From: Bacteroidota bacterium
GTDB lineage: Bacteria; Bacteroidota; Bacteroidia; Chitinophagales; Saprospiraceae
Reading direction: 5' to 3'
Length of the DNA: 40,120 nt
Assembly (NCBI GenBank): GCA_029781095.1
Contig: JAKOXM010000166.1
Coordinates: 1-40,120, forward strand
Shown here: in pieces, positions 8,311 to 37,260 of the stretch
Position numbering within the stretch: the stretch's first letter is position 1
Layout: each line of letters starts with the position of its first letter
Notes under the pieces: model-generated
The model's database searches: none
What the model was told of the DNA's origin: nothing
Seen by the model: only the letters and a program-made list of their open reading frames with translations
Made by a program: the position numbers and the translations under genes

Positions 8311-8325
8311 GGAGGGGAAATTACT

Positions 8326-8484: not shown

Positions 8485-8508
8485 TCAAAGTCTGAAACGC
8501 CCCGGACT

Positions 8509-8907: not shown

Positions 8908-8934
8908 CAGGAGCACATTTTTTAGTCGGGTTCA

Positions 8935-8995: not shown

Positions 8996-9009
8996 GTACA
9001 AGTATATGA

Positions 9010-11463: not shown

Positions 11464-11483
11464 TCTTCAGGTATTTTTACATG

Positions 11484-11491
11484 CAAAGATA
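11484..11491 (-). promoter_or_regulatory. Bacteroidota-type -7 element (TATCTTTG on minus strand)
   Basis: Read on the minus strand, TATCTTTG matches TAnnTTTG exactly and lies about 21 nt before the TTG start of the second P-type ATPase. The same spacing is seen at the pullulanase gene. No clear -33 TTTG is found at the proper distance. It supports the unusual TTG start and a promoter separate from the RIC gene. Confidence 0.35.
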
Positions 11492-11497
11492 AAATCC

Positions 11498-12253: not shown

Positions 12254-12590
12254 GGTAAGGACGTGATTATTGGCTATAAAACCGGTTGGGAGATGATTAC
12301 AAAGTTCGGTTTTCACGGGGTTCGGTCAAATGATCATGGCACAAAAAAGCCATGACATTGATCATGCCCGTGTTTTCATTCCACGGCACTAATTATTCAA
12401 CGTAATAAGGTCAACCTCTCTTGTGATAAATGTCATTTTATTTGGATGAATATGTGTATCACTTTGCATGACATCCTGAGAGTTATTTGAGCTGTTCCGC
12501 CGGGTGGGAAAAGATGCCTTTTTGATCCCGGTAATTGACTCAAACAGACGCTTGATAAAACAACAGACGCTTGATAAAACAACAGACGCA
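12254..12590. promoter_or_regulatory. Divergent intergenic region with palindromes and repeats
   Basis: This 337-bp gap between divergent genes holds no convincing coding frame. It contains a 7-bp hairpin TCATGGC/GCCATGA (12334-12340 and 12349-12355) with the octamer TGATCATG repeated at 12331-12338 and 12359-12366. It also contains TGTGA-N6-TCATT at 12422-12437, an 8 of 10 match to the CRP half-site pair. A 19-bp tandem repeat lies next to the plus-strand gene. The region is AT rich as expected of a promoter. A CRP/FNR-family regulator is plausible given the RIC gene but is inference. Confidence 0.4.
12543..12589 (+). repeat. 19-bp tandem repeat, about 2.5 copies
   Basis: The unit AACAGACGCTTGATAAAAC occurs at 12543-12561 and 12562-12580, and its first nine bases recur at 12581-12589. 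The array abuts the ATG of the metal-binding lipoprotein at 12591, so it lies in the promoter or leader. Copy-number change would shift spacing or add ribosome-proximal sequence. Confidence 0.85.
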
Positions 12591-12980
12591 ATGAAACACC
12601 TGATATTTTTAGTTCTCCTGGCAACAGGCGCCTCTTTTTTGGTACCGGGGTGCGCATCTAAAAAAGATCTGGCGCAGACCTCGTACACGTGCCCGATGCA
12701 CCCTGAAATAAGCGGCAGGAAAGGCGACACGTGTTCGAAATGTGGTATGGCCCTCACAGCATCAAAAGAGGCGACGGGCAAATACTATTGTGCGATGCAC
12801 CCCGAGTGTAAAGGAAGCTTGGGCGATAAATGCCCTAAATGCGGCATGAAGCTTACGACAGATCAAAAAGCGGCGGGGATGGCGAGTTGCCCCATGCACG
12901 CCGACTGCAAGGGCAAGATGGGTGACAAGTGCCCGAAATGCGGCATGAAAATGAAAGAAAGAGAGGGCGCAAATCAATGA
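12591..12980 (+). CDS. Lipoprotein with three heavy-metal-binding motifs
   Basis: A 129-aa lipoprotein with lipobox VPGC (Cys21). Three tandem units follow, each of the form C-[PA]-M-H-[PA] then about 10 residues then C-x2-C-G-M: Cys34/48/51, Cys67/81/84 and Cys100/114/117. This is the heavy-metal-binding (HMBD, YHS-like) signature found in copper efflux proteins and periplasmic metal scavengers. It probably binds Cu or another soft metal on the outer side of a membrane. The ATG at 12591 is chosen because the signal peptide starts there; the open frame extends 29 codons upstream through the tandem repeat. Unit similarity suggests internal duplication. Confidence 0.82.
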   Translation: MKHLIFLVLLATGASFLVPGCASKKDLAQTSYTCPMHPEISGRKGDTCSKCGMALTASKEATGKYYCAMHPECKGSLGDKCPKCGMKLTTDQKAAGMASCPMHADCKGKMGDKCPKCGMKMKEREGANQ

Positions 12981-19203: not shown

Positions 19204-19246
19204 TGAGCGTGTACATGCATTGTTCAGGAATTCCGAACAGGGAATT

Positions 19247-19309
19247 TTTCCCGCAGATCTCGCAGATATCTCGGAAAAAATCTGCGAAATCCGCGGTATC
19301 TGCGGGAAA
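19247..19309. repeat. Intergenic hairpin repeat, copy 1
   Basis: The element starts TTTCCCGCAGATCTCGCAG and ends ATCTGCGGGAAA, so its ends are inverted repeats, and it is full of GCAGAT/ATCTGCG units. It is preceded by GAACAGG like copy 2. Such GCAGAT-rich elements are widespread intergenic repeats in Bacteroidota. Its position after fhs would allow it to act as a transcript end or stability hairpin. Confidence 0.8.
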
Positions 19310-19379
19310 TTCAACCAGGAATTGCCCCATCAAAACATGAAGCATTTTCAGGGCGGCACATACTCGTGCGAACAGGATG

Positions 19380-19451
19380 TTTCCCGCAGATCTCGCAAAT
19401 CTGGCAGATATCTCGGAAAAAATCTGCGTAATCTGCGATATCTGCGGGAAA
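19380..19451. repeat. Intergenic hairpin repeat, copy 2
   Basis: This is a second, slightly longer copy of the element at 19247. It has the same TTTCCCGCAGATCTCGCA start, an internal GATATCTCGGAAAAAATCTG core, and the same TCTGCGGGAAA end. The extra length is one additional internal unit. The copies are 70 bp apart in the same orientation and both follow GAACAGG, suggesting duplication or repeated insertion into one site. The rest of the 19204-19583 gap holds only these copies and the promoter candidate. Confidence 0.8.
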
Positions 19452-19478
19452 CAACTCCTCAATCGAAATGCATCATTT

Positions 19479-19510
19479 TTTGCATAAGCCTGCATTCTCT
19501 TGTACCTTAG
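19479..19510 (+). promoter_or_regulatory. Bacteroidota-type promoter for the formate dehydrogenase genes
   Basis: TTTG at 19479-19482, a 20-nt spacer, then TACCTTAG at 19503-19510 fit the TTTG-N19/20-TAnnTTTG consensus with one mismatch. A start near 19517 would give a leader of about 65 nt before the ATG at 19584. It lies just beyond repeat copy 2. Confidence 0.45.
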
Positions 19511-19583
19511 CGGAGCCTTAATCACCGCTTTGAACCGACACTGCCACCACAGAAGCCCTTGTGTCAATTGCCAATCAGAGATT

Positions 19584-21248
19584 ATGTCTAAAAATTTAAG
19601 CGAACTGTCCGGCCGCAAAGGCCTTGCCGACAACCTATTCGAGGACCTGGGTATTGCCGCACGACAAACGGGTACGCCTTCCAGGGAAGAAATGGAGCGG
19701 CTGACCGAGGAATTTCTGGTAGGCAAGGCGAACGTATACGGTTCGGTTTCCTTTTATGATTTTCTCAAACCCGAAAACCAGGGCAAAAAGGTATATCTCT
19801 GCAATGGTAGCGCCTGCCTGACCGCAGGCACACAGCATGCGCTGGAAGCCAAAATGGCAAATCATTTTACAGCATCCGAGATCGGTACGATGTGCTGCCT
19901 CGGACGCTGCCACGAAAACAGCGCGTTCTACTACGAAGGAAAAAACTATTCCGGCGACGCCATTGGACAAATTGACGAGATAAAACGCACAAAAACCGCT
20001 GTTTCAGATCATTATCATATTGCAGCACAAGGAACTGCCGTGCTGACGGCCCCTTACCCCGACGTATCAACATACTATGCTGTTTTAAAAGACTGTCTGG
20101 GCAAGACCCGCGAGGATCTGTTGTCCGAATTGAAAGATTCGGGCCTGCGGGGCAGGGGCGGCGCCGGTTTTCCGATCGCTTTCAAACTGGAATCCTGCAA
20201 ACAAAGTCCGGGCGACACCAAATTCATCGTCTGCAACGCCGACGAGGGTGATCCCGGCGCCTATTCCGACCGCTACGTCATGGAACATCGCCCGCATGCC
20301 CTGCTGATGGGCATGATGATCGCAGGGTATATCTGCGGCTCTTCCCGGGGCGTTCTTTACATCCGGGGCGAATATCCCGAGTCGGTTGACATCATCCATA
20401 AGGCCGTAGCAGAGTTGCGCAACGCCGGGTGGCTGGGTGAAAACATCGGAGGATATGGGTTTTCGTTCGATTTCAAGGTCATAGAAGCACAGGGCGCCTA
20501 CATCTGCGGCGAAGAAACAGCCTTGTTGTCGTCTATCGAGGGCCAGCGCCCGGAGGTGCGGGTACGCCCGCCCTACCCTACCCAGCAGGGTCTGTTCAAC
20601 AAACCAACTGTAGTCAATAACGTGGAAACGCTCGCCAATCTGCCTTATGTCATGCAGCACGGCGGAAAGGCGTTCGCGGCCATCGGCACCCAAAAATCGA
20701 CCGGTACCAAACTCCTTTCCCTCGACGGGCATTTCAACAGGCCGGGCATTTACGAGGTAGATATGGGTACGCCGCTGTCAACCGTGATCTACGACCTTGG
20801 CGGCGGATTTCGCAAACCGGTGAAAGCCATGCACATCGGCGGTCCTTTGGGCGGCCTCGTGCCGGTCGATAAAATTGATTCCCTTACCGTCGACTTCGAT
20901 TCTTTTGCGAAAGAAGGCTTTTTGCTCGGCCACGCTTCCATAGTCTGTATCCCGGAAGATTTTCCCATTGTACAATATCTGGAACACCTGTTTGAATTCA
21001 CGGCGCACGAGAGTTGCGGCAAATGTTTTCCCTGCCGGCTCGGCTCGACGCGCGGATATGAAATGCTCCACAAAGCCCGCACGGATGCCTATTTCAAAGT
21101 AGACAGGTCGCTGATGGACGACCTGCTGGAAACACTGGAGATCGGCTCGCTTTGCGCCCTTGGCGGCGGACTTCCGCTTCCGGTAAAAAATGCCCTGAAA
21201 TATTTTGAAACGGAACTTGCGCCCTATTTTCAAGATAATGCCTCCTGA
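19584..21248 (+). CDS. NAD-dependent formate dehydrogenase diaphorase subunit (NuoE-NuoF fusion)
   Basis: A 554-aa protein that passes electrons from the dehydrogenase to NAD+. The N-terminal thioredoxin-like domain has a NuoE-type 2Fe-2S site, Cys73/78 and Cys105/109 (CNGSAC and CCLGRC). The rest is NuoF-like, with FMN/NADH motif GLRGRGGAGFP near 185-195 and the 4Fe-4S motif SCGKCFPC (Cys478, 481, 484) plus a later Cys in SLCALGG. The ATG at 19584 is chosen because conserved sequence starts soon after; the open frame upstream runs into promoter DNA. It is 52 bp upstream of the catalytic subunit gene, which shows it serves formate dehydrogenase rather than complex I. Confidence 0.9.
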   Translation: MSKNLSELSGRKGLADNLFEDLGIAARQTGTPSREEMERLTEEFLVGKANVYGSVSFYDFLKPENQGKKVYLCNGSACLTAGTQHALEAKMANHFTASEIGTMCCLGRCHENSAFYYEGKNYSGDAIGQIDEIKRTKTAVSDHYHIAAQGTAVLTAPYPDVSTYYAVLKDCLGKTREDLLSELKDSGLRGRGGAGFPIAFKLESCKQSPGDTKFIVCNADEGDPGAYSDRYVMEHRPHALLMGMMIAGYICGSSRGVLYIRGEYPESVDIIHKAVAELRNAGWLGENIGGYGFSFDFKVIEAQGAYICGEETALLSSIEGQRPEVRVRPPYPTQQGLFNKPTVVNNVETLANLPYVMQHGGKAFAAIGTQKSTGTKLLSLDGHFNRPGIYEVDMGTPLSTVIYDLGGGFRKPVKAMHIGGPLGGLVPVDKIDSLTVDFDSFAKEGFLLGHASIVCIPEDFPIVQYLEHLFEFTAHESCGKCFPCRLGSTRGYEMLHKARTDAYFKVDRSLMDDLLETLEIGSLCALGGGLPLPVKNALKYFETELAPYFQDNAS

Positions 21249-21300
21249 AAAAAACCTCAATATCGAAATGACGATCACGGCGAATCTAAAATAACGCATC

Positions 21301-24105
21301 ATGAGCACGAATCCTAACATCAGTGATAAATCTTCGCCGGTACAACCCGGAGGGCCTGTTGCCTTTATCAATGACAAACCGTACGCCATCGAGCCCGGCG
21401 ATACGATCCTGAAATTCGTCCGGCGGCACCTCGGCAACCAGCTCGTGCCCACGCTCTGCGATGCACCCAATCTCGAGCCCTTCGGGTCCTGCCGGGTATG
21501 CAGCGTGGATGTGGCGCTGGTACAAAACGGCCCCGCCAAAACCCAGGCATCGTGCCATACGCCCGTCATCGCCAACTCGTACATATATACGGACAGTCCG
21601 CGCATCAAAAAACTGCGCAAAAACATCATCGAACTGGTACTGACCGACCACCCGCTGGATTGCCTCACCTGTGAGGTCAACAACAACTGCGAATTGCAGA
21701 CTGTCGCTGCCCGGGTCGGTATCCGCGATGTGCGATACCCGGAAGGCAAAAATCACCTCGACCGGAAAAAAGACCTGAGTCACCCCTACATGACCTCCGA
21801 TTTCTCCAAATGTATCAACTGTTTCCGCTGCGTGCGCGCCTGCGACGAGGTGCAGGGCCAGTTGGTGCTGAGCATGGCAGGACGCGGCTTCGACAGCCAT
21901 ATCGTGAAAGGCTTTGAAAATACCTTTTTCGAATCCGATTGTGTCAGTTGCGGCGCCTGCGCACAGGCCTGCCCGACTTCCGCCATTTCGGACGTTTTTG
22001 AATCGAAATCCGTGGCAGTCGACAAAAAAGTGCGGACCGTTTGCACCTACTGCGGCGTCGGCTGCAACCTTGAAGTAGCCGTCGTGAATGACAAGGTAAA
22101 ATCTATCCAGGCGCCTTACAGCGCGGAAGTGAACCAGGGACATACCTGTTTGAAAGGCCGTTTTGCTTTTTCGTTCTATGATCACCCCGACCGCATCCGC
22201 ACCCCGTTGATCCGCCGCAACGGCACGCTGGAACCCGCAACCTGGGAAGAGGCCTATGACTTTATTGCCGAAAAACTGGTCGCAATCCGCGCAAAACACG
22301 GCCCGGACGCTATCGCAGGGATATCTTCGGCTCGCTGCACCAACGAGGAGAATTACCTGATGCAGAAATTCATCCGGGCAGTCATCGGCACCAACAACAT
22401 CGATTGCTGCGCAAGGGTGTGCCACTCCCCCACCGCACTGGGTATGCAGCGGGCCTTCGGCACCGGCGCAGCCACCAATTCGATCGAAGACCTCAAATAT
22501 ACGGATTGCATCATGGTCATCGGCGCCAACCCGACCGATGCGCACCCGGTTACAGGCGCCAAGTTGAAGCAACACGCCATGAGCGGCAAAACGACCATCG
22601 TGATCGATCCGCGCCGCACCGAACTGGCGCGCTACGCGACCTATCACCTCCCGTTGCGCCCGGGTACCAACGTGGCCCTGCTCAACATGATGTTGTACTA
22701 CATCATGACGGAAAATCTCGAAGACACGGCCTTTATCGAAAGCAGGACCGAAGGATACGAAAGTCTCCGCGACCAGATACTGAAACTGGACCTCGACGAA
22801 ATGGAAAAGGTGACCGGCGTCGACCGGGAACTGGTGCGCGCGGCAGCCATTGCCTACGCCTCGGCGCCCAACGCCATGTCGTTCCACGGACTGGGCGTAA
22901 CCGAACATACACAGGGCAGTTACACCGTGATGCTCATTTCCGACCTTGCCATGATCACCGGAAATATCGGCCGCCGCGGTGTCGGCGTCAACCCGCTCCG
23001 TGGCCAGAACAACGTGCAGGGCGCCGCCGACATGGGCTGCCAGCCGCACCAGGGCGCGGGCTACCTCGACGCCTACGATCCGGAGATCAACAAAAAGTAC
23101 GAAGCGTTTTACAACGTCAAAATTCCGCTCGGTAAAGGGTACAAAATACCCGAGATGTTCGACGCTTCCATCAACGGCAACCTGAAAGCATTGTGGCTCA
23201 TGGGTGAAGACGTAGTGCAGACAGACCCCAACACCAACAAGGTGATCGCCGCCATGGAAAACCTCGAACTCCTCGTGGTGCAGGAACTGTTTATGACAGA
23301 AACAGCCAGATACGCCACGGTCATTCTGCCCGGTGCATCTTTCCTCGAAAAAAGCGGTACCTACACCAACGGCGAACGGCGAATCCAGCGCGTGCAAAAA
23401 GTCGTGGAACCCCTGCCCGGCACCAAAAGCGACGGCCAGATCATTGTGGACATCATGAACCGCATGGGTTACCCGCAACCCGACTACGACCCCAATACCA
23501 TGCTCGAAGAAATATCCCGGATCGTGCCCTTCTTTGCCGGTGTGCGCTGGAACGAGCTCGGCGACAACGGCAAGCAATGGCCCGTACTGCCGGATGGAAC
23601 GGACACGGAAATACTTCATACAGAGACCTTTAAGCGCGGAAAGGGAAAGTTTCACCACTTCGATTTCAAGGAAAGCAAAGAGATCGAAAAAAACGGCGCG
23701 GAATATCCGTACATCATCACCACCAATCGCGAACTGGAGCATTACAACGCCGGCACCATGACCCGCCGCACACGGAATGTACAAATACTGACCGAAGATA
23801 CCCTTATGATAAACCCGGAGGACGCTGCCCGGCATTTCATTGAAGACGGCGACATGGTATGCGTTACTTCCCCGCGCGGAAAAGTGGATATCAAGGCCAA
23901 AATTACGGACGAAGTACGGCCAGGCGTGCTGAGCACCACCTTCCACTTCCCCGAAGTCATGCTGAACGTGATCACTTCAGACGAACACGACACCGAAGCC
24001 ATGTGCCCCGAGTACAAGGTCGTGGCGGTGAATATCAGGAAGAGCAAAGGGAAGTTCAAATCAGTGCCGAAAGAAGCCGTTGTACGTGCCGAAGAGATGG
24101 ATTAA
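21301..24105 (+). CDS. NAD-dependent formate dehydrogenase catalytic subunit
   Basis: A 934-aa molybdopterin enzyme oxidising formate to CO2. A NuoG-like N-terminus carries a 2Fe-2S site (Cys53, 64, 67, 85), a His-Cys 4Fe-4S site (His117, Cys121, 124, 130) and two ferredoxin clusters (Cys171/174/177/181 and 214/217/220/224). Then the bis-MGD domain begins with a 4Fe-4S site (Cys248, 251, 255, 283). The metal ligand is Cys374, in ARVCHSP, where selenoenzymes have selenocysteine; no in-frame TGA is present. The layout matches FdsA/FdhA cytoplasmic enzymes, pairing with the diaphorase gene upstream. No separate FdsD-type or accessory gene is seen nearby. Confidence 0.93.
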   Translation: MSTNPNISDKSSPVQPGGPVAFINDKPYAIEPGDTILKFVRRHLGNQLVPTLCDAPNLEPFGSCRVCSVDVALVQNGPAKTQASCHTPVIANSYIYTDSPRIKKLRKNIIELVLTDHPLDCLTCEVNNNCELQTVAARVGIRDVRYPEGKNHLDRKKDLSHPYMTSDFSKCINCFRCVRACDEVQGQLVLSMAGRGFDSHIVKGFENTFFESDCVSCGACAQACPTSAISDVFESKSVAVDKKVRTVCTYCGVGCNLEVAVVNDKVKSIQAPYSAEVNQGHTCLKGRFAFSFYDHPDRIRTPLIRRNGTLEPATWEEAYDFIAEKLVAIRAKHGPDAIAGISSARCTNEENYLMQKFIRAVIGTNNIDCCARVCHSPTALGMQRAFGTGAATNSIEDLKYTDCIMVIGANPTDAHPVTGAKLKQHAMSGKTTIVIDPRRTELARYATYHLPLRPGTNVALLNMMLYYIMTENLEDTAFIESRTEGYESLRDQILKLDLDEMEKVTGVDRELVRAAAIAYASAPNAMSFHGLGVTEHTQGSYTVMLISDLAMITGNIGRRGVGVNPLRGQNNVQGAADMGCQPHQGAGYLDAYDPEINKKYEAFYNVKIPLGKGYKIPEMFDASINGNLKALWLMGEDVVQTDPNTNKVIAAMENLELLVVQELFMTETARYATVILPGASFLEKSGTYTNGERRIQRVQKVVEPLPGTKSDGQIIVDIMNRMGYPQPDYDPNTMLEEISRIVPFFAGVRWNELGDNGKQWPVLPDGTDTEILHTETFKRGKGKFHHFDFKESKEIEKNGAEYPYIITTNRELEHYNAGTMTRRTRNVQILTEDTLMINPEDAARHFIEDGDMVCVTSPRGKVDIKAKITDEVRPGVLSTTFHFPEVMLNVITSDEHDTEAMCPEYKVVAVNIRKSKGKFKSVPKEAVVRAEEMD

Positions 24106-30032: not shown

Positions 30033-30872
30033 TCAATCGCTGCCGCTTGTTTTCCGGTATACCAGCAACGGTACATTTGTCATAAATGAAAACGCCTCGG
30101 ACATGCTCGCGGCGAACATCCGGTCAAACCAGTTCTTGTTGGTATGGGTAAAAAATACAACAACAGCAGGTTTTATCTTTTCGATCAACCTGTTCATCTG
30201 AATGGCAAAATTTCCATCCAGCCGATCCAGATACACCTGATCCAGGCAATCGAATTGCCGTTGCCACAAAGCAGCAAGCGTTTTCGGGTCGGGCTTTAAT
30301 TCGTTCAGGTAATAGAAATGCGCGAGGTCAGTCCGTACCCCCATCGATCCGGTCAGCCGGCATACGATCTGCATTTCCGTTTCGAGGTTCTCGATGTCGG
30401 AAGCGTACAGCACCTTTTTTATTTGCCGGATACGGTAGGTGTGCGGAACAACCAGTACCGGCAGCGGCGATTTGTGCAGAAGGCTGCTGGTGTGGGTCCC
30501 CAGAATTTTGCCCAGCCCGCCTGCGCCGCGAGTGCTGATACAGATAAAACCGGCTTCAAGCCGGCGTGCATGCTCCAGTATGGCTTTGCCGGGGTTCAAA
30601 TCCTCCACGACGACACAGCGGTAGGCGCCCGGGCTTGTTTTCAAAGATCTATAGACGCCGGCGACAAATTTTTCCAGTTTTCGCAAATGGTCCGCTGTCT
30701 GTCGCTGCAACGGATTTTCGATGCGCTCCCGTTGCACTGCCGTCGGTATCAAAGCCTGAAAACAGTGGAAAAATATCAATTCGGCGTTCATTTGGGCAGC
30801 CAACCGGACCGCGAAACGCAAACCTGCCTTCGAAGGTGTGGAAAAATCGGTTGTGACGAGTATCTTTTGCAT
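30033..30872 (-). CDS. Tandem universal stress protein
   Basis: A 279-aa protein made of two USP domains (about 1-145 and 150-279). The first starts KILVTTDFSTPSKAGLRFA and has the ATP-binding pattern STRGAGGLGKILGTHTSSLL, followed by PLPVLVVP. The second lacks a clear G-x2-G-x9-G(S/T) loop and keeps an altered version (THTNKNWFDRMFAASMSEAF). Tandem USPs with one degenerate half are common in Bacteroidota. They bind ATP or AMP and aid survival in hypoxia, starvation or stress. The gene lies 36 bp after the polymer-forming protein gene on the same strand. Confidence 0.9.
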   Translation of the reverse strand: MQKILVTTDFSTPSKAGLRFAVRLAAQMNAELIFFHCFQALIPTAVQRERIENPLQRQTADHLRKLEKFVAGVYRSLKTSPGAYRCVVVEDLNPGKAILEHARRLEAGFICISTRGAGGLGKILGTHTSSLLHKSPLPVLVVPHTYRIRQIKKVLYASDIENLETEMQIVCRLTGSMGVRTDLAHFYYLNELKPDPKTLAALWQRQFDCLDQVYLDRLDGNFAIQMNRLIEKIKPAVVVFFTHTNKNWFDRMFAASMSEAFSFMTNVPLLVYRKTSGSD

Positions 30873-30908
30873 GGCTGAATATTTTATACCGGCCTTGTTG
30901 TGCCGGAA

Positions 30909-32105
30909 TTACGAGGGCTGTGCTGTCTTGCGCCGGAAAATTCCGCTGCTATCCAGGATAGCTCCGAACGCGGTACATACAACGGCTATTTTGACAATCC
31001 AGCCGACAAAGGGGACAAATCCCAGCAATTTCAGCAGTATGAACAACCCAAGGGCTCCAAATACGAGTTTAAGCGGAGACCAGTTATAATGCCGCGTCTG
31101 ATCCACCCAGTGTGCGCCGACCAATGCTGTGATGACATTCGCAAGGGCCAGAAACAATATGTAAAAGCCCAGTGCGATCAGGCCGACCGGAATGCCGACA
31201 ATGGTGATGAATAACATGACAACACCGATCGGAACGACGGCGAAATAGAGAAATCCGATCCCCAGGGCACGAAACGGCTCCGCCTGCGCCGTGTTGGCGG
31301 CCTGCCGGAATGCTCCTCTAAAAAGCCATTGACCCAGCCATATCAGGATGAACGCGGCCGCCAGGTATCCGATGGCTGCCAGGAATGATGCAAAGCCCAG
31401 AAACCTGAAATCCGGCCGCTCGAAGCGTTGCTTCAGCGATTCATCGAAGGTCGCCTTGGCATCGTTTCGCAGAGCCCTGCCAAAATCGACCTCGCCTTCA
31501 TCCGCCCAATAGCGGACATTGCCGTGCAGGGCGGCTTTTTCGCCGGTTTCAATATGTTTGGCAACGATCGTGGAGATGCCGCCGACGGTTCCGTTGAGAG
31601 TCAGGTCTCCGCCGTTGAATTCAAGGTCTTTACCCAGGGCGCCGTTCAGGATGAGTGTACCAGCGGCGGATTGGAGCCCCCCGCCAATCGAGCTGTTGAT
31701 GGTGGCGGTGCCGCCTGCCAAAGCCACGTCGCCATCGATATCGGCGCCCGATTCAACGGTAATGGTACCGCCTGTGCTCAGCAGATCGCCCGCAATATGG
31801 CCGGATACAACGAGATTGCCGCCTGCCGCCCGCACGTCGTCGAGCACGGCGCCATGCAGGTAAACATTACCCCCGGCCACAACGACATCGCCGGTAACGG
31901 TGTCGTTCACTGTTATGGTACCGCCGGCGCACCAGAGATCACCATGTACGGGTGCATCGATGTACACCGTACCGCCGAACACGTATATGTCTTCGTTGAC
32001 CGTTTGGGAAATCCGGACCTTATCGCCTTTTTCGATACGGAGCCCGTAGGCGGGAATGGCGAACGTCAGGGCTAAAAACCAGCTGAGTGGAATGAATATT
32101 TTCAT
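30909..32105 (-). CDS. Polymer-forming (bactofilin-like) beta-repeat membrane protein
   Basis: A 398-aa protein with a signal peptide (ending PAYG). A right-handed beta-helix type repeat region follows (about 35-195), with recurring V-x-G-D-[LVA] and A-G-G-x-[VI] steps such as GDLWCAGGTITVN and GDVVVAGGNVYLH. A charged linker follows, then about four hydrophobic helices (about 240-380). The repeats resemble bactofilin-type polymer-forming proteins, but the signal peptide and C-terminal helices put the repeats outside the cytoplasm with a membrane anchor. Function unknown; a periplasmic scaffold is plausible. It is upstream of the USP gene and divergent from the CxxCH lipoprotein gene. Confidence 0.72.
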   Translation of the reverse strand: MKIFIPLSWFLALTFAIPAYGLRIEKGDKVRISQTVNEDIYVFGGTVYIDAPVHGDLWCAGGTITVNDTVTGDVVVAGGNVYLHGAVLDDVRAAGGNLVVSGHIAGDLLSTGGTITVESGADIDGDVALAGGTATINSSIGGGLQSAAGTLILNGALGKDLEFNGGDLTLNGTVGGISTIVAKHIETGEKAALHGNVRYWADEGEVDFGRALRNDAKATFDESLKQRFERPDFRFLGFASFLAAIGYLAAAFILIWLGQWLFRGAFRQAANTAQAEPFRALGIGFLYFAVVPIGVVMLFITIVGIPVGLIALGFYILFLALANVITALVGAHWVDQTRHYNWSPLKLVFGALGLFILLKLLGFVPFVGWIVKIAVVCTAFGAILDSSGIFRRKTAQPS

Positions 32106-32232
32106 GGCTTTGAATTAAGTTTTTACAAAATTGCACACTCAAATTATCCAATAAAATGATTTTAATCGGGTTTAGACATGATATTTCCCTTCTATCAATT
32201 TGACATGTCCGGGTACTTAAAATAACTCAACT

Positions 32233-32733
32233 ATGAAAAAGAGCCTCGTTTTTCTCGCACTGGCAGCTTTTCTCGCGATGAGTGCATGCGGCGGCAACCA
32301 GACTGCCGAAGTGAAAGCGCTTCAAAGCCGTGTTGCCGATCTGGAAAAACAACTCGCGGATACGTACAAGCCGGGATTCGGCGAGTTTATGTCGGGCATT
32401 CAGGTGCACCACGCCAAACTTTGGTTCGCGGGCCTGAATCAGAACTGGGACCTCGCCGATTTTGAAGTACACGAGATCATGGAGGCGCTCGAAAACATCC
32501 AAAAATACCAGACAGAAAGAAAAGAGACTGCTTTGATACCCTCGCTTGATCCCGCGTTGAAAACAATGAACGACGCCATTCAAAAGCAGGATCTGGCCGC
32601 TTTCAAATCGAGTTACGAGTTGCTGACCACTGCATGCAACAACTGCCACCGCGACGTGCACTATGAATTCAACCAGGTAAAAACGCCGGACCAACCGCCT
32701 TTCAGCAATCAGGCATTTCAGATCCGGAAGTAA
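32233..32733 (+). CDS. Lipoprotein with a single haem-c motif (CxxCH)
   Basis: A 166-aa lipoprotein: lipobox MSAC (Cys19), a short coiled coil (about 25-42), then a helical domain ending in ACNNCH (Cys135, Cys138, His139), a c-type haem attachment motif. Helical composition and the motif near the C-terminus recall four-helix cytochrome c' proteins, which bind NO, CO or O2, but that resemblance is inferred. It could also be a small electron carrier. It is divergent from the polymer-forming gene across 127 bp and precedes the S2P gene. Confidence 0.62.
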   Translation: MKKSLVFLALAAFLAMSACGGNQTAEVKALQSRVADLEKQLADTYKPGFGEFMSGIQVHHAKLWFAGLNQNWDLADFEVHEIMEALENIQKYQTERKETALIPSLDPALKTMNDAIQKQDLAAFKSSYELLTTACNNCHRDVHYEFNQVKTPDQPPFSNQAFQIRK

Positions 32734-32768
32734 CCGGCGCCTTTGGCAATTCCGGCCGGGCGTTTTTT
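32734..32768 (+). terminator. Probable terminator after the CxxCH lipoprotein gene
   Basis: A GC-rich hairpin formed by CGCC (32738-32741) with GGCG (32759-32762), and inner GGC/GCC pairing, is followed by TTTTTT (32763-32768). It immediately follows the stop codon, suggesting the S2P gene has its own promoter downstream. Confidence 0.42.
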
Positions 32769-32810
32769 GCAGGCGCGTTATCAAACAGGTTTCAGGGAAA
32801 TAAAAACCGC

Positions 32811-32830
32811 CGGTTGATGAAACTCAACCG
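32811..32830. promoter_or_regulatory. FNR/CRP-type palindrome upstream of the S2P gene
   Basis: CGGTTGA and TCAACCG are perfect inverted 7-mers around six bases (TGAAAC). The core TTGAT-N4-CTCAA matches the FNR box TTGAT-N4-ATCAA at 9 of 10 positions. It lies about 108 bp before the ATG of the S2P gene in a non-coding gap. Binding by a Bacteroidota CRP/FNR regulator is inferred. Confidence 0.5.
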
Positions 32831-32927
32831 TAGGCATGACCTCTATTGCGGCATAAGGCAACGATATCCCCTGAACTTTGTTCCAGTTTGGACATAGCAA
32901 TCCATTTGCTGTTAAAACGGTTATACC

Positions 32928-34019
32928 ATGAAAAATGCGCTCTATCTCGGCAAAGTGTCGGGCATCCGGATATTCGTTCACTGGACATTTCTGATCCTGA
33001 TCGGCTGGATCGTTTTCAGCAACCTCAACCGGGGCCTCGGTGGCACTGAAATCCTGTGGTCGGTCGCATTCATCCTGACGATTTTCGGCTGTGTGACGCT
33101 GCACGAACTGGGTCACGCGCTTGCCGCAAAAAGATTCAACATTGTAACGCGCGACATCACGCTGCTGCCCATCGGCGGTGTGGCGCAGATGGAGTCCATA
33201 CCCGAAAAACCCAAAGAGGAACTGATCGTAGCCATCGCGGGGCCCGCTGTCAACCTGGTCATTTTTGTGCTGCTTTTTTTCGCGCTTCCCGGCCCTCAAT
33301 CGGCAGGCGGAGCGATGGATATCCAGCACATTGGCCCCGGCAATTTCATGTACGCGCTCATGGTCGTCAATATGTGGCTGGCCCTGTTCAACCTCATCCC
33401 TGCATTTCCGATGGATGGCGGACGCGTTTTTCGCGCCCTTCTGGCTTTCCGGATGGAGCGCACCCGCGCCACGCGCATCGCCGCAGGGCTGGGACAAATA
33501 CTGGCCATGGGGTTTATCTTTCTGGGGCTTTTTTACAATCCCTTCCTCGTTTTTATCGGGCTTTTTATTTTTCTCGGCGCACAATCGGAAGCCGAGCAAA
33601 CCCAGACCAAGTCATTGCTGAAAGGCTACACCGTGCATGACGCGTTGCTGGAGGAGATTCCGGAGATGGCGCCGGAGACCAGCATCCGCGCAGCGGCCGA
33701 ACACCTGCTGCACACCCAAAACAAATATTTTCTGGTTAAAAACGACGGCAAACCGGCAGGCACGCTCGGACGCGACGAGATTATCAGAGCCATCGGAAGC
33801 ATGGATGATAATGCGCCCGTGCAACAGGCCATGCGCGCCGAAGTGATGTACCTGACGGTGGATATGCCGATTGAAGAGGCCTGGAACAAGATGCAGCGGG
33901 AAAAGCAGTCGTTTGCACTGGTCGGTTCTGAAGATGAAGTGTTTGGCGCCCTCGATACGGATAACATTGCCGAATTCGTCATGATCCGGTCGGCGGAGCA
34001 GAGCAAAAAGTCAAAATAA
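32928..34019 (+). CDS. Site-2 protease with two CBS domains (Rip3-like)
   Basis: A 363-aa integral membrane metalloprotease. Zinc ligands are HELGH (His59, Glu60, His63) and Asp163 in PMDGG, both within hydrophobic helices. After about six helices, two CBS domains occupy roughly 225-360. CBS domains bind adenosyl nucleotides, so proteolysis may be energy-sensing. This layout is that of Rip3 (Rv2625c), a member of the mycobacterial DosR dormancy regulon. Substrate unknown; S2Ps often cleave anti-sigma factors. It starts with ATG 32928 and is followed after 22 bp by a phosphoribosyltransferase gene. Confidence 0.9.
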   Translation: MKNALYLGKVSGIRIFVHWTFLILIGWIVFSNLNRGLGGTEILWSVAFILTIFGCVTLHELGHALAAKRFNIVTRDITLLPIGGVAQMESIPEKPKEELIVAIAGPAVNLVIFVLLFFALPGPQSAGGAMDIQHIGPGNFMYALMVVNMWLALFNLIPAFPMDGGRVFRALLAFRMERTRATRIAAGLGQILAMGFIFLGLFYNPFLVFIGLFIFLGAQSEAEQTQTKSLLKGYTVHDALLEEIPEMAPETSIRAAAEHLLHTQNKYFLVKNDGKPAGTLGRDEIIRAIGSMDDNAPVQQAMRAEVMYLTVDMPIEEAWNKMQREKQSFALVGSEDEVFGALDTDNIAEFVMIRSAEQSKKSK

Positions 34020-34041
34020 TGGCTTCAAAATCGAACATGCC

Positions 34042-34713
34042 ATGTTTAAAGACAGATACGACGCCGGCATGCAACTCGCAAATTTGCTCCGGCATTATAA
34101 AAACCGCGACGGCGTGGTGCTGGCGGTTCCGCGCGGCGGTGTGGAAACCGGGTATATAGTCGCCAGGGAACTCGGTCTCCCGCTCGAGATCGTTTTGTCC
34201 AAAAAAATCGGTCACCCCGATCACCCCGAATTCGCTATCGGGGCAGTCAGCCTAGAAGGGCGGGTGCTCACCCCGCGCGCCGATGTCTCCCCCGAATACA
34301 TCGAAGAAGAGACCGAACGTCTGCGTGAAATGCTGCGCGAACGGTACAGGATGTATTACGGCGATCGCAAACCGGTCGGACTGGAGGACAAAATCGTAAT
34401 CGTTGTGGACGACGGCATTGCCACAGGCAACACCCTGCTGTCGACGGTTGAACTCATCCGGCACCGGCGGCCGCGCCGCGTGGTGGTAGCCGTACCGGTG
34501 GCGCCGCCCGATGCACTTCGCAACATCCGCGATGCCCGTGGCGTCGACGAGGTCGTTTGTGTGCTCAGTCCGCGCGATTTTTACGCTGTCGGGCAGTTTT
34601 ATGAAAATTTCGACCAGGTGGAAGACGCGGAAGTAAAGCGGTTGCTGGAAGAAGTATGGCGTTCCGGGGCAGGCGGAGAAAAGCCTGTCACCGCACAAAA
34701 AGCACCGAATTGA
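34042..34713 (+). CDS. Phosphoribosyltransferase-family protein
   Basis: A 223-aa protein with the PRPP-binding loop VIVVDDGIATGNT (119-131) and an N-terminal AVPRGGVETGYIVARELG segment, typical of stand-alone PRTases such as mycobacterial Rv0571c and the PRT half of Rv2030c. Substrate is unknown, and related proteins are not part of the normal nucleotide salvage set. It follows the S2P-CBS gene with a 22-bp gap, so the two are co-transcribed. The last 26 bp overlap the end of the convergent CBM48 gene. Confidence 0.87.
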   Translation: MFKDRYDAGMQLANLLRHYKNRDGVVLAVPRGGVETGYIVARELGLPLEIVLSKKIGHPDHPEFAIGAVSLEGRVLTPRADVSPEYIEEETERLREMLRERYRMYYGDRKPVGLEDKIVIVVDDGIATGNTLLSTVELIRHRRPRRVVVAVPVAPPDALRNIRDARGVDEVVCVLSPRDFYAVGQFYENFDQVEDAEVKRLLEEVWRSGAGGEKPVTAQKAPN

Positions 34714-35647
34714 CATTCCCTTTCCGGTCCGTTTCGACGCGCGGGTTGGCCGGATCCGTCATCCAGTTGCCATCCACGATAAACTTGTAGAGTTGTTTGC
34801 CGCCCGTCAGGGGCACGGTGACCGCCCAGCCGGTTTCCGTGCGGTGCATTTTCAGGGCATGCTGGTCCCAGTTGTTAAAACTGCCCGCAAGAAACACTTC
34901 TCCCGCGCCGTCGAAGCCGTCGAGTTCGAAGCGCACCGGTTTGGCGACGTTCAGCACCGAATTGTAGGTGTCGTATTGATTTACCCTTTTTTCCGGATTG
35001 GCGGGGTCCTCCATCCAGTTGCCGTCGACGATAAATTTGTATTCATACGTGCCTGGCAGGAGCATCAGTTGCAATTCCCAGCCATCGCCGCTTCGCTTCA
35101 TATGAAGGGCATTTTCGTCCCAGTTGTTAAACGTTCCTGAGAGGATGACCTGCTTGCTTTCTGCGTAGCCTTCCAGTCTGAACACGGCATTGCCTGAATC
35201 GACGGGTACGGGCGCGGGTGCGTTCGGGTTCTTGATGTCTTTCCACCCGATAAGTCCCTGTTTTTTCAAGGCCGACTCGGGGCTGGCCCAATACGTTCCG
35301 TTGATCAGAAATTTGAATTGCCAGTTGGGCGCGTCCTTAAAATCTTTCAGATGCTTGCGCAGACGGTAGCGGTATTCATCCACGCGTTGCATTTTCCAGC
35401 CTTCTTTTGACCAGTTGTTGAACGTGCCCGTGACTGCTACTTCCAGTATGCCGAGGTCGGCAAAATCCACCGCCGTCGTATCGGAAGCGCGGGTAGCCTT
35501 CTCATAGACTCGCCGGTCGAATTCAAATACGACATCGTTGCCGTCGAAATAATAGGAGCCGTATTTACTTTTAGAGGTATCGATCTGCGCCGCAGCCACG
35601 AAAGCCGCGAACACAAAAAGGATACTTGCGGAGTATTTTATTGACAT
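34688..35647 (-). CDS. Secreted protein with three glycogen-binding (CBM48-like) domains
   Basis: A 319-aa protein with a signal peptide (ends FVAAAQ) and three AMPK/isoamylase-N type carbohydrate-binding domains. Each has a G-[TS]-F-N-N-W turn and later a YKFI-V-D-G-x-W type strand: GTFNNWSKEG, GTFNNWDENA and GSFNNWDQHA. No catalytic domain is present. Domains two and three are closest, pointing to internal duplication. It may bind glycogen or other alpha-glucan in the periplasm or outside, possibly with the pullulanase at 1504, though the genes are far apart. ATG 35647 is chosen over 35659 because the signal peptide fits better. Its 3' end overlaps the PRTase gene. Confidence 0.85.
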   Translation of the reverse strand: MSIKYSASILFVFAAFVAAAQIDTSKSKYGSYYFDGNDVVFEFDRRVYEKATRASDTTAVDFADLGILEVAVTGTFNNWSKEGWKMQRVDEYRYRLRKHLKDFKDAPNWQFKFLINGTYWASPESALKKQGLIGWKDIKNPNAPAPVPVDSGNAVFRLEGYAESKQVILSGTFNNWDENALHMKRSGDGWELQLMLLPGTYEYKFIVDGNWMEDPANPEKRVNQYDTYNSVLNVAKPVRFELDGFDGAGEVFLAGSFNNWDQHALKMHRTETGWAVTVPLTGGKQLYKFIVDGNWMTDPANPRVETDRKGNVNSVLFVR

Positions 35648-35674
35648 TTTTTTTTCCATTTAAACCAACGGGAA

Positions 35675-36646
35675 TCAGGGTCTTAAAGCCTCATAAAACG
35701 TGATACGCCGTCGTTTGTAATTGATGCTCACCGGGCGCTGCGACAAAAACTCGTACCCTAGAATACCATCGAGTTGCGTCTCGTAGCTTGCGTTTATTTC
35801 GCGCAGATTGGTCAACAAGGTAGCCATGGGCCTTAGTGTAAATGTGTCGACGCGCCCGTTTTGCAGGTTCCCGCTTAATACTTCTATACTCGTTTGTCCG
35901 GCGCCATTGAGTTTTACGCGGCGAAGTATTTCAAAATTACTTTTTAAAAAGCGTTTGCCGGCGTTGTTGCTCAACAAATTTTGCTCGGCCCCAGAGTCCA
36001 GCCCGAACCACTTGCCTTGTTTGGGGCCGAATTCAAGCCAAACCTCCGCTATATGCCCTGATATTTTTATGGCCGAACTGCCAAGCGGCTTGTACTCCCA
36101 GGCCGGGATCATCTCCAGGGGTTTTCCGCCGGCGTCTGTGCGGACCAGCAGTAAAACCGACGACCCGTAATCGAACAATACTTCATAATCGCGAAACACG
36201 GAATAGCCGATCAGCCCGACCAGGTCCGTTTTTTTCGCGCGTTCGATATGCGAAAGGTCGATCAGTTCCGCCGTGATGTTTACCGCCAGCAGGTTGTCGA
36301 GTTGAAGCGAATCCACCCTCACCGAACCCATCACCCGGACCTTCCCGGTAACGCCTCCCCCGTCGGTCGCGGCCAGCGGCGAGCGGTTACCGAAATGCCG
36401 GGCGTTGAGCAAAAGGCCCGCTGCGCCGGTGTCGAAGAAAAAATTGCCCTCCACCGAGTCTATCCGGGCCCGGACGGTAATCAGGGTGCCTGTAAGGGTA
36501 AAAGGTATCCGGATGATATTGGGCTCATACAACTGAGCGTCCGTTAAGGTCAGGTCCCATGAAGGGGTTGCAAGTGCGGAGCAGCCGGCGGAGCATAAAA
36601 GCACTGCCGAAAGCCCCCGAAGGCAGGAGCGAAGAGTTGTTTTCAT
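35675..36646 (-). CDS. Retropepsin-like aspartyl protease
   Basis: A 323-aa exported protein. The N-terminus has a hydrophobic signal with a Cys (LCSAGC) that may be lipidated. Two aspartyl-protease lobes are seen: FFDTGAAGLLL (Asp72) and GLDSGAEQNLL (Asp about 232), each followed by beta-rich sequence, and an ending RPVSINYKRRRITFYEALR. Bacteroidota often have such two-lobed retropepsin-like proteins of unknown substrate. The ATG at 36646 is chosen because the signal starts there. It lies 27 bp upstream of the CBM48 gene on the same strand, so the two may be one operon. Confidence 0.8.
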   Translation of the reverse strand: MKTTLRSCLRGLSAVLLCSAGCSALATPSWDLTLTDAQLYEPNIIRIPFTLTGTLITVRARIDSVEGNFFFDTGAAGLLLNARHFGNRSPLAATDGGGVTGKVRVMGSVRVDSLQLDNLLAVNITAELIDLSHIERAKKTDLVGLIGYSVFRDYEVLFDYGSSVLLLVRTDAGGKPLEMIPAWEYKPLGSSAIKISGHIAEVWLEFGPKQGKWFGLDSGAEQNLLSNNAGKRFLKSNFEILRRVKLNGAGQTSIEVLSGNLQNGRVDTFTLRPMATLLTNLREINASYETQLDGILGYEFLSQRPVSINYKRRRITFYEALRP

Positions 36647-36743
36647 AGACTTGCCAGATAAACGTCTGCACCCCGCATCTGATTGGCTGCCTTTGAAAAT
36701 AAATACGGCTCCATGTTCCAAGTGGAAAAATAACGCACGCAAG

Positions 36744-36759
36744 TGACCGTAGCGGGTCA
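36744..36759. promoter_or_regulatory. Palindrome TGACC-N6-GGTCA
   Basis: A perfect 5-bp inverted repeat with a six-base centre (GTAGCG) lies in the 191-bp gap between the divergent retropepsin and CBS genes. Its spacing resembles CRP/FNR-family sites but the sequence does not match a known consensus, so the binder is unknown. Confidence 0.35.
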
Positions 36760-36777
36760 TTTCAATTACCCCTGCTG

Positions 36778-36791
36778 TTGATTTTTATCAT
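36778..36791 (+). promoter_or_regulatory. FNR-type box upstream of the CBS gene (TTGATTTTTATCAT)
   Basis: TTGAT-TTTT-ATCAT matches the FNR box TTGAT-N4-ATCAA at 9 of 10 positions. Its centre is about 53 bp before the ATG at 36838. If it were a class II activation site at -41.5, transcription would begin about 12 nt before the start codon, consistent with a short leader and the strong AAGGAG Shine-Dalgarno just before ATG. Confidence 0.5.
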
Positions 36792-36837
36792 TCTCAAGCT
36801 GCGGCCGGAACGGTCAGATTTGTGGAAAATAAGGAGT

Positions 36838-37260
36838 ATGAAAAACGAACCTATCTCTACCCTGATGTCGCAGCATGTTGTGACGGTTGATATCCACGAG
36901 CATATTGAAAAAGCGCAAACCCTGATGCAGATGCATAAAATAAGACACCTTCCGGTATTGCACAAAGGCAAACTGGTGGGCATTCTCAGCTTGACGGATT
37001 TGATGCGCCTGAGTTTTTCAGACAACTTCGGCGATATGGAATCGGATGCGGACGTCGCTATTTTCGAAATGCTCGGCATCCGCCATGTTATGAAATCGAA
37101 ACCCGAAACGATTTCCCCGACTCATACCGTCCGGGAAGTTGCCGAAATACTGTCTCACCGTGAATTTCATGCGCTTCCGGTGGTGGAAAATGATGTAGTG
37201 GTCGGCATGGTCACCACGACCGACCTCATCCGCTATTTTTTGAGCAAGATGGATATTTGA
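36838..37260 (+). CDS. Two-CBS-domain protein (Hrp1-like)
   Basis: A 140-aa protein consisting of two CBS domains (about 1-58 and 82-138), with motifs HKIRHLPVLHKGKLVGILS and REFHALPVVENDVVVGMVTTTDL. CBS pairs bind AMP, ATP or related ligands. The layout equals Hrp1 (Rv2626c), which is strongly induced in hypoxia, next to Rip3 in mycobacteria. The ATG at 36838 is preceded by AAGGAG at 6-7 bp, an unusually good ribosome site here, so the upstream open frame from 36778 is rejected. It is convergent with the patatin gene. Confidence 0.88.
   Translation: MKNEPISTLMSQHVVTVDIHEHIEKAQTLMQMHKIRHLPVLHKGKLVGILSLTDLMRLSFSDNFGDMESDADVAIFEMLGIRHVMKSKPETISPTHTVREVAEILSHREFHALPVVENDVVVGMVTTTDLIRYFLSKMDI

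Follow-up and report, generated by a model that had tools for sequence, protein, structure and literature searches.

The gene cluster at 30.0-37.3 kb raises the question of whether its stress and protease genes belong to a joint low-oxygen regulon, and which regulator would control it. The window (the whole stretch of DNA analysed, 40,120 nt) is the entire contig C581. A sequence-only reading had named in the cluster a tandem universal stress protein, an S2P protease with CBS domains, a phosphoribosyltransferase and a two-CBS protein. Pfam bears out these families, as well as those at 5.7-16.3 kb (P-type cation ATPases, OsmC, RIC with ScdA_N and hemerythrin domains, peroxiredoxin and PEP synthase); the P-type cation ATPases number two (at 5707-8310 and at 9010-11463), where one, of Ca2+ type, had been named. 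The genes of the cluster are:

30033-30872 (-), universal stress protein (USP), tandem type with divergent second half; Pfam PF00582, E 1.3e-21
30909-32105 (-), bactofilin-like repeat protein containing membrane segments, leading gene of the probable USP operon
32233-32733 (+), cytochrome c'-like lipoprotein; Pfam PF01322, sub-threshold
32928-34019 (+), site-2 protease (S2P), M50, with HELGH and PMDGG motifs and a C-terminal CBS domain; Pfam PF02163 (Peptidase_M50), E 1.8e-24, and PF00571 (CBS), E 6.8e-9
34042-34713 (+), stand-alone phosphoribosyltransferase (PRT); Pfam PF00156, E 1e-18
35675-36646 (-), retroviral-type aspartyl protease with a putative start codon; Pfam PF13650
36838-37260 (+), two-CBS-domain protein (CBS2), 140 aa; Pfam PF00571, E 3.6e-29

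The tandem structure of the USP is confirmed for its first half, whereas the second half has no Pfam match; the latter is considered divergent because relatives nevertheless align over up to residues 1-277. The USP gene lies 36 bp downstream of the bactofilin-like gene, whose product has no Pfam match itself; a relative (locus L321) has a sub-threshold Bactofilin match (E 0.0036). The PRT gene begins 22 bp past the S2P gene; PRT relatives at E 1e-30 were found in 30 of 395 phylum genomes, and a DLH-type hydrolase adjoins PRT in 15 of 31 loci. The most probable start of the two-CBS gene is ATG 36838 rather than TTG 36778, and the palindrome at 36778 is thus located in its promoter.

Both palindromes named earlier exist, CGGTTGA-N6-TCAACCG (core box 32815-32826) and TTGATTTTTATCAT (core box 36779-36790), and there is a third box at 32157-32168. 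Together with their putative -7 elements, the boxes are:

32157-32168 (-), regulator box CGATTAAAATCA, 1 mismatch, 57 bp 5' of the bactofilin-USP operon
32815-32826 (+), regulator box TGATGAAACTCA, 1 mismatch, 107 bp 5' of the S2P gene
32873-32880 (+), -7 element GAACTTTG of S2P, 52 bp from the first box centre
36779-36790 (+), regulator box TGATTTTTATCA, exact TGAT-N4-ATCA, centre 53 bp 5' of the CBS gene
36815-36822 (+), -7 element CAGATTTG, consensus TAnnTTTG, 30 bp from the centre of box 36779

The -7 element of the bactofilin-USP operon (CAATTTTG) is spaced 29 bp from box 32157. A degenerate second box, TGACCTCTATTG (3 mismatches, 32837-32848), follows box 32815 at 22 bp, and the 52-bp box-to-element distance of S2P is close to the paired-box distance of 51. 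It should be noted that a box alone is weak evidence, because 12 of the first 15 boxes listed in this genome fall inside genes; this genome contains a single exact pair of boxes, which plays no part in a promoter. Taken as single boxes, 32157 was matched in 11% of shuffled regions, 32815 in 7% and 36779 in 0.4%, so that solely the last is unusual. An exact box was present within 250 bp upstream of 10 of 42 related CBS genes. None of 30 S2P orthologues had an exact box; one S2P case was noticed (G101), in which HSP20 and S2P are in a likely common operon behind a scoring promoter.

At the loci of relatives where REC-CRP (the regulator described below) is near USP, CBS and kinase genes, TGAT-N4-ATCA boxes are present, often paired at a distance of 22 bp. 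They have the core of the FixK/FNR-type site TTGAT-N4-ATCAA, with no preference for its outer T and A in 113 sites. In 25 of 84 promoters, compared to a background of 1.0, the -7 element TAnnTTTG lies 29 bp past the centre of the box, and this position suggests the geometry of an activator. We scored promoters with a composite model of a box and a -7 element spaced by 28-30 or 51-52 bp, trained on 24 promoters from other genomes only. The 1-bp tolerance was introduced after the CBS2 element had been seen at 30 bp, and shuffles and controls were given the identical tolerance.

The composite scores were 25.9 for CBS2, the highest among 126 own-genome entries (some promoters were entered twice), 21.2 for bactofilin-USP and 16.2 for S2P-PRT, the last being dependent on the tolerated 52-bp distance. 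Among 1200 shuffled upstream regions (99% at 9.6, maximum 15.1), none attained any of the three scores, and neither did any of 200 permuted models; of 547 real control promoters, 4 scored at least 16 and none at least 20. Under the strict 29-bp spacing, which bactofilin-USP alone of the three satisfies (CBS2 and S2P require the 1-bp tolerance), bactofilin-USP ranked first in the whole window (23.0), CBS2 scored just 5.9 and S2P was outside the top 14. From the ranks of the three promoters in the composite model, the region is probably composed of three operons of one regulon. The joint control of the USP, S2P-PRT and CBS units proposed earlier is thus predicted by the scores, with bactofilin-USP and CBS as the firmest members and S2P-PRT as the least firm.

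Two further candidate members share boxes with these units: the cytochrome c'-like gene, divergent from the bactofilin-USP operon (10.5), and the aspartyl protease gene, divergent from the CBS gene (19.0 toward the protease). Scanning this genome also placed boxes with 0-2 mismatches and a -7 element before USP genes on contigs C743, C801 and C616 (composite scores 21.1, 19.8 and 16.5). The ATPases, OsmC, peroxiredoxin and ppsA, placed in the same regulon by the sequence-only reading, show no boxes of their own (-6.2 to -0.1), and the RIC promoter scored 7.2, a value matched or exceeded by 3% of shuffles. One box of this region ranked second in the strict scan of the window (17.3), between the divergent genes for RIC and for a heavy-metal-binding-domain lipoprotein:

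12424-12435 (+), regulator box TGATAAATGTCA, 1 mismatch, with a -7 element TCACTTTG at 29 bp
12591-12980 (+), Cys-rich lipoprotein with three heavy-metal-binding (HMBD) stretches; Pfam PF19335, E 5e-21

Its composite score would be 16.8 if the lipoprotein started at GTG 12504; measured from ATG 12591, the more probable start, the box is some 161 bp off, which is beyond the scored range. The hypoxia idea is right in kind and too wide in scope.

Control by a CRP/FNR-type protein had been suggested, and this genome carries on contig C81 a gene for REC-CRP, in which a receiver domain is joined to a DNA-binding domain of the CRP type (Response_reg, cNMP_binding, HTH_Crp_2); the gene is itself behind an exact box (composite score 22.5). 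REC-CRP was found in 146 of 199 family genomes. Its neighbourhoods in relatives contained a FixL-type heme-PAS kinase in 35 of 40 cases, USP in 23 and CBS in 18, compared to none of 40 control neighbourhoods for each; USP, CBS and regulator genes thus recur together in the family. The 7-kb block as such is not conserved, since tblastn showed no USP, PRT or CBS2 neighbour at 40 family S2P genes. In a motif-first test, 6 of 35 genes downstream of paired boxes encoded USP and 4 encoded CBS proteins. Paired boxes were present in 69 of 146 genomes with REC-CRP versus 8 of 53 without a strong REC-CRP match (P 3e-5, kinship uncorrected).

The low-oxygen link found support in relatives. The PAS domain of one relative's kinase matches Bradyrhizobium japonicum FixL at E 5e-33, five kinases scanned by Pfam were all PAS-type, and the heme-pocket residues (proximal His and distal Arg) are kept in 35 of 41 kinase sequences. 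Of 15 readable genomes, 7 carry boxes 5' of the cbb3 CcoNO genes, in 5 cases at no more than about 260 bp, whereas this genome and 7 other readable ones have no exact box at the cbb3 gene. Boxes were also found at relatives' genes for ATPases with an ATPase-cat_bd domain and at radical-SAM genes, which are possibly hemN. On C81 the ORFs show no kinase adjoining REC-CRP, and two genus mates have none there either.

We consider it likely that the cluster represents three operons (bactofilin-like plus USP, S2P plus PRT, and two-CBS) of one low-oxygen survival regulon with REC-CRP as the activator. REC-CRP is the most likely activator; in most sampled relatives its gene is near one for a FixL-type heme-PAS histidine kinase. 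A drop in oxygen would cause the kinase, or a presumed partner in this genus, to phosphorylate REC-CRP, which would then bind TGAT-N4-ATCA boxes, frequently paired at a distance of 22 bp. From boxes centred near -41 relative to the -7 element TAnnTTTG, it would recruit RNA polymerase to genes for USP, CBS and small heat-shock proteins; in several relatives the cbb3 oxidase genes would be among its targets.

If the cluster were a chance neighbourhood of common stress genes with boxes as AT-rich accidents, the absence of a conserved block at the 40 S2P genes, the occurrence of one-mismatch single boxes in 7-12% of shuffled upstream regions and the exclusion of CBS2 and S2P under strict spacing would be expected. 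However, once the -7 element is counted, none of 1200 shuffles attains the observed scores, control promoters do so in 0 of 547 cases (CBS2 and bactofilin-USP) to 4 of 547 (S2P), and the earlier reading had already named these genes together with two palindromes out of the three; we regard this explanation as very improbable. A real regulon whose signal is not low oxygen but general stress, stationary phase or nitric oxide is less unlikely, although still doubtful. In other bacteria, USP and CBS proteins respond to many stresses; RIC, of a family that repairs damage from nitrosative stress, is beside a weakly scoring box (7.2), and this genus has neither an adjacent heme kinase nor, in this genome, an exact box at cbb3. 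The FixL-type pocket residues in 35 of 41 kinases and the relatives' boxes at cbb3 oxidase, ATPase-cat_bd ATPase and radical-SAM genes argue for oxygen.

It is to a similar degree unlikely that the same regulon is read by another, one-component CRP/FNR protein, with REC-CRP merely a target or helper. The box TGAT-N4-ATCA is the core of FNR/FixK sites. A site of this form has been described for Anr (PMC9104464), at a cytochrome bd promoter of H111, a strain that does not have the lxa locus (see below). This genome has 10 CRP-family (PF13545) matches, two of which (L016 and L018) have recognition helices similar to that of REC-CRP with the same E..xR pattern; moreover, a CRP-family gene adjoins S2P in two control loci (L081 and L088), and paired boxes also occur in 8 of the 53 genomes that have no strong match to REC-CRP. 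Conversely, box density is 90 per Mb around REC-CRP genes compared to 46 in control loci, the REC-CRP gene itself bears a box, its co-occurrence with paired boxes has a P of 3e-5 (kinship uncorrected), and an FNR-type N-terminal three-cysteine cluster was seen by eye in none of the 10 own CRP-family proteins (script-called starts).

The FixL-FixJ-FixK2 system of Bradyrhizobium resembles this arrangement in its heme-PAS kinase, whose His and Arg recur in the kinases of relatives, and in a CRP-type site with the core TGAT-N4-ATCA. It differs in phylum, in promoter type (-7 TAnnTTTG here) and in having a separate FixJ (receiver plus LuxR domain), which drives fixK; here the receiver and CRP domains form a single protein and, because the FixJ and FixK parts are fused, one transcription step fewer would be needed. 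Among the proteins reported as microoxia-induced in the available text on Bradyrhizobium are PEP synthase, USPs, CBS proteins, cbb3 subunits and the FixI ATPase (PMC6515984).

The DosR regulon shares with the window the USP, CBS, S2P, PRT and P-type ATPase families (the ATPases here being without their own box), and the pairing of a heme kinase (in relatives) with a response regulator. Rv0571c is a PRTase, Rv1997 is CtpF, Rv2623 is a USP, Rv2625c is Rip3 and Rv2626c is Hrp1. The DNA-binding domain of DosR is of the LuxR type, whereas that of REC-CRP is CRP-type rather than LuxR/NarL-type; the heme sensor is PAS in relatives and GAF in DosS/DosT, and the operators differ. DosR-type operators (GGGACT-WW-AGTCCC) are not enriched in the window (3 matches with 3 mismatches each, versus 3.33 expected). 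In the portions consulted, the regulon lists contain Rv0571c, Rv1997, Rv2031c (HspX), Rv2623, Rv2625c and Rv2626c, with Rv2625c said to be without a DosR site (PMC2275270, PMC4082495). The lxa locus of Burkholderia cenocepacia is similarly a USP-rich set tied to low oxygen: its 50-gene cluster, raised when oxygen is low, includes six USPs and a heat-shock protein; it is a single locus in a proteobacterium, and REC-CRP is not mentioned in the available portion of that report (PMC6127331). Saprospiraceae of an anammox reactor likewise combine Bacteroidota CRP/FNR proteins with changing oxygen; MalR-like carbon sensing was predicted there, the available text contains neither "universal stress" nor "TTGAT", and REC-CRP is not mentioned in the portions consulted (PMC8510549).

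For the large Bacteroidota family, we lean toward low-oxygen survival through a shortened Fix cascade, in which a heme-PAS kinase would phosphorylate one receiver-CRP protein. This protein would itself directly activate class-II-type promoters that have paired boxes and the Bacteroidota -7 element, at USP, CBS, HSP20, cbb3 and protease genes. If true, this would be a third, independently wired counterpart to the DosR and FixK regulons, and similar sets of survival proteins (USP, CBS, S2P, PRTase and small heat-shock protein) would be wired to oxygen sensing by different regulators across phyla. To our knowledge, the survival switch of aerobic Bacteroidota on oxygen exhaustion is poorly described; the analysis puts a name to the regulator, points to a sensor whose heme pocket can be tested, and supplies an operator at a fixed distance from the promoter as well as a list of targets. 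The three units of the window appear to have a common promoter switch which, in relatives, adjoins an oxygen-sensing kind of kinase and regulator, and the cluster seems to belong to a programme for survival at low oxygen with wiring unlike that of the tuberculosis bacterium.

The source genome comprises 5.96 Mb in 830 contigs (95% complete, 6.6% contamination), and the window is the entire contig C581. The gene families that the sequence-only reading had named in it agree with Pfam, with some corrections. The region proposed as a survival island contains the following genes:

Within 30.0-37.3 kb, minus strand: a pair formed by a bactofilin-like gene and then a universal stress protein (USP) gene, separated by 36 bp
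Within 30.0-37.3 kb: a cytochrome c'-like lipoprotein gene
Within 30.0-37.3 kb, plus strand: a pair formed by a site-2 protease gene with a CBS domain (S2P) and then a phosphoribosyltransferase (PRT) gene, separated by 22 bp
Within 30.0-37.3 kb, minus strand: a CBM48-repeat gene and an aspartyl protease gene
Within 30.0-37.3 kb: a two-CBS gene (CBS2)

The protein encoded at 34688-35659 looks secreted and carries repeated AMPK1_CBM/CBM48 glycogen-binding modules, with no catalytic domain found by Pfam. Elsewhere in the window, a formate-tetrahydrofolate ligase gene is followed by NuoF-like and NuoG/molybdopterin formate-dehydrogenase-like genes (17530-24105), a probable NAD-linked formate oxidation module. 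The genes for RIC, a P-type cation ATPase, OsmC and another P-type cation ATPase (5707-12316) lie on the same strand with gaps of 34, 93 and 198 bp, and may therefore be partly co-transcribed.

When the strict FNR box TTGAT-N4-ATCAA was searched for ahead of S2P orthologues, no site proved to be conserved; this form masked the actual motif, in which the outer bases are free. In 20 loci totaling 364 kb that were selected for USP, CBS or PRT content, the shorter box TGAT-N4-ATCA has 59 occurrences, ranking third of 256 palindromes of like shape (median 6), compared to 32 occurrences in 691 kb of S2P neighborhoods. In the same 20 loci, neighboring boxes stand 22-24 bp apart ten times. A motif-first search found the paired pattern in 77 of 199 family genomes versus 2 for the reversed pattern. 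It should be noted that the reversed pattern contains TAG and is thus a weak control; we relied instead on other palindromes, control loci, shuffles and permuted models. The motif-first search returned 30 loci, in which 27 of 31 paired-box sites lie outside called genes, and the 35 genes downstream of paired boxes include 6 USP genes, 4 CBS genes, 2 ATPases with an ATPase-cat_bd domain, 2 histidine kinases, 2 cyclases, 1 COX1 and 1 HSP20. An exact box lies within 250 bp upstream of 10 of 42 CBS genes similar to the CBS2 of the window, and of none of 30 S2P genes. The cbb3 component FixO is present in 16 of 20 chosen genomes. Among the 15 genomes with readable upstream sequence, the fused CcoNO gene is preceded by an exact box in 7, at up to about 260 bp in G085, G170, G058, G100 and G168 and at ~350-375 bp in G055 and G016; the other 8, including the source genome and both genus mates, have none.

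We oriented 84 promoter-proximal boxes, those of the source genome included, to the downstream gene and searched for TAnnTTTG with at most one mismatch, the -7 element known for Bacteroidota. The element is found exactly 29 bp from the box center in 25 of 84 cases, against a shuffled background of 1.0. Another 14 cases have it at 51 bp, i.e., 29 + 22 (background 1.1); 4 cases are at 52 bp, and the other distances listed have at most 3 each. The 29-bp spacing is the position expected for an activator that overlaps the -35 region.

Box and element were then combined in a composite model. The strict version, built from 24 promoters, none of them from the source genome, with the -7 element at 29 bp, was used to scan the whole window and ranked the bactofilin-USP promoter first (23.0) and a site at 12429 second (17.3); in 20 shuffled windows the mean maximum was 8.4 and the highest value 16.6. 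Under this model, CBS2 scored 5.9 and S2P was outside the top 14. A tolerant version accepted distances of 28-30 and 51-52 bp but penalized those that were off by one. This tolerance was introduced after the CBS2 element had been seen at 30 bp, and shuffles and controls were treated alike. The tolerant scores were 25.9 for CBS2, 21.2 for bactofilin-USP and 16.2 for S2P-PRT. In the S2P-PRT promoter, the -7 element is at 52 bp, and the sequence shows a second, degenerate box exactly 22 bp downstream. The scores of aspartyl protease (19.0) and cytochrome c' (10.5) come from the CBS2 box in the opposite orientation and from the bactofilin box, respectively, and the HMBD lipoprotein scored 16.8. 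Among 1200 shuffled upstream regions, the 99% level was 9.6 and the maximum 15.1; among 547 real control promoters, 4 reached at least 16 and none 20. None of 200 permuted-column models reached the three target scores. The top control promoter belongs to an HSP20 gene directly before an S2P orthologue in G101, a related genome, where the two genes form one likely operon (L080 1483-3075; composite score 18.9).

These results suggest that the three operons of the region probably belong to one regulon under a CRP-type regulator. We hold this reading with good confidence, lowered because the strict 29-bp model misses CBS2 and S2P. The idea of a survival island thus stands in a narrower form than claimed. 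Its extension to the stress genes at 5.7-16.3 kb finds no support, except for the box that lies between the genes for RIC and the HMBD lipoprotein. The tolerant score of RIC (7.2) is not significant and was reached by 25 of 200 permuted-column models; all remaining window promoters scored at most 5.7, with both ATPases, OsmC, Prx and ppsA between -6.2 and -0.1. The ATPase gene at 9010-11463 follows RIC after 34 bp, with OsmC next, and therefore the RIC promoter could serve both.

Outside the window, the box alone proves little in the source genome, as 12 of the first 15 sites listed fall inside genes. Its only exact box pair (L228 372-405, contig C455) was rejected as a promoter: it is flanked by the ends of two genes, one for a cytochrome c and a convergent one for a DHFR-like protein (names taken from translations), and no gene starts behind it. 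The highest composite scores outside the window were 22.5, for a gene encoding a receiver domain fused to a CRP-type DNA-binding domain (REC-CRP), and 22.4, for a 620-residue protein without a Pfam match (L229 7172-9034, contig C801), among the strongest predicted promoters in the stretches scored. USP hits fell on nine contigs, and upstream sequence was read for C743, C801 and C616, whose USP promoters are also among the top ones (composite scores 21.1, 19.8 and 16.5), and for the window and C81, where the USP stands behind a CBS gene; C268, C805, C646 and C657 were left out.

Contig C81 of the source genome carries genes for a two-CBS protein and a USP that has a thioredoxin-like domain, with the 346-residue REC-CRP (Response_reg, cNMP_binding, HTH_Crp_2) encoded divergently. 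In both genus mates the USP-CBS-REC-CRP order is the same, an argument for assigning C81 to the genus of the source genome. A class III nucleotide cyclase-like protein with membrane segments adjoins REC-CRP on C81 (L143 9865-11238). At E 1e-60 or better, REC-CRP was found in 146 of 199 family genomes. We compared 40 REC-CRP neighborhoods, those of the two genus mates and 38 from about the first two thirds of the ranked list, to 40 control S2P neighborhoods at the same threshold. The former contain a histidine kinase in 35 cases, USP in 23 and CBS in 18, and less often a CcoI-type ATPase (4), HemN-like (3), HSP20 (3), CcoNO (2), Prx (2) and a Ca-type ATPase (1); the controls contain no kinase, USP or separate CBS gene, and have a CRP-family gene in 2 cases, HSP20 in 1 and Prx in 1. 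CRP-family genes with weak REC-CRP matches lie close to S2P orthologues in G020 (L081 9487-10131) and G001 (L088 8740-9387). All 40 REC-CRP proteins have the receiver motif, and at least 37 have the recognition helix motif GTAKE[ST]xxR, for which one gave no match.

In relatives, the regulator is accompanied by a kinase of a predicted oxygen-sensing type. The PAS domain of the G093 kinase matches B. japonicum FixL at E 5e-33, with SRHD and IIGIGR common to both. In structure entry 1y28, alanine occupies the position at which G093 and the other FixL chain carry arginine, a residue that we take to be Arg220. We aligned 41 kinase sequences: 36 came from the 40 loci, two of these being pieces of one split gene, and five were additional. 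Histidine and arginine are both kept in one PAS domain in 35; the G018 and G024 kinases have methionine in place of arginine, one kinase has neither residue, and three gave no alignment. No kinase adjoins REC-CRP on C81, as read from ORFs, or in the two genus mates.

Conserved clustering of the 7-kb block was not borne out in the family. S2P relatives were found in 171 of 199 family genomes; however, tblastn of 30 window proteins against 40 family S2P neighborhoods and 4 further loci found no USP, PRT or CBS2 neighbor, USP was also absent by profile search, and S2P was thus rejected as the core of a conserved island. A Cytophagales MAG supplied the closest S2P (57%) in the named collection; the 3.5-kb contig of that S2P (L064), read from translations, has none of the partner genes. 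PRT is rare: some match was found in 5 of 54 genomes, near full-length in 3 (the source genome included), and a match at E 1e-30 in 30 of 395 phylum genomes. In 31 narrow PRT loci, the neighbors include a DLH-type hydrolase (15), USP (3), a P-type ATPase (1) and S2P with ppsA (1). Eight wider loci, of 29 other PRT genomes, were picked knowing the narrow ones and serve as illustration, not as a count: G299 (L317) has four USP genes, PRT, DLH, a P-type ATPase and six boxes within 13 kb, and G277 (L315) has DLH, ppsA, S2P and PRT consecutively. From the narrow and wide PRT loci and the empty S2P neighborhoods, it follows that the component genes co-occur repeatedly within the phylum, though the family does not have them as this block. 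The G277 S2P is split into two overlapping reading frames (L315 4832-5931), the first matching Peptidase_M50 and the second labeled only by similarity to the window S2P. In G514, of a different family, a relative of the bactofilin-like protein (L321 269-1435) lies ~3-6 kb from DLH, PRT and USP; the bactofilin-USP link may therefore be old.

The literature drawn on comprises PMC8510549, PMC9104464, PMC6515984, PMC2275270, PMC6127331 and PMC4082495. Our search, with subscription literature mostly outside it, found no printed description of a receiver-CRP regulator of USP/CBS genes in Bacteroidota. The proposed likeness to the DosR regulon extends to gene content and to a shared logic, in which a putative heme kinase acts on a response regulator, but not to the regulator family or the site. 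In this organism, REC-CRP would bind the boxes, receive phosphate from a kinase and mediate a response to oxygen.
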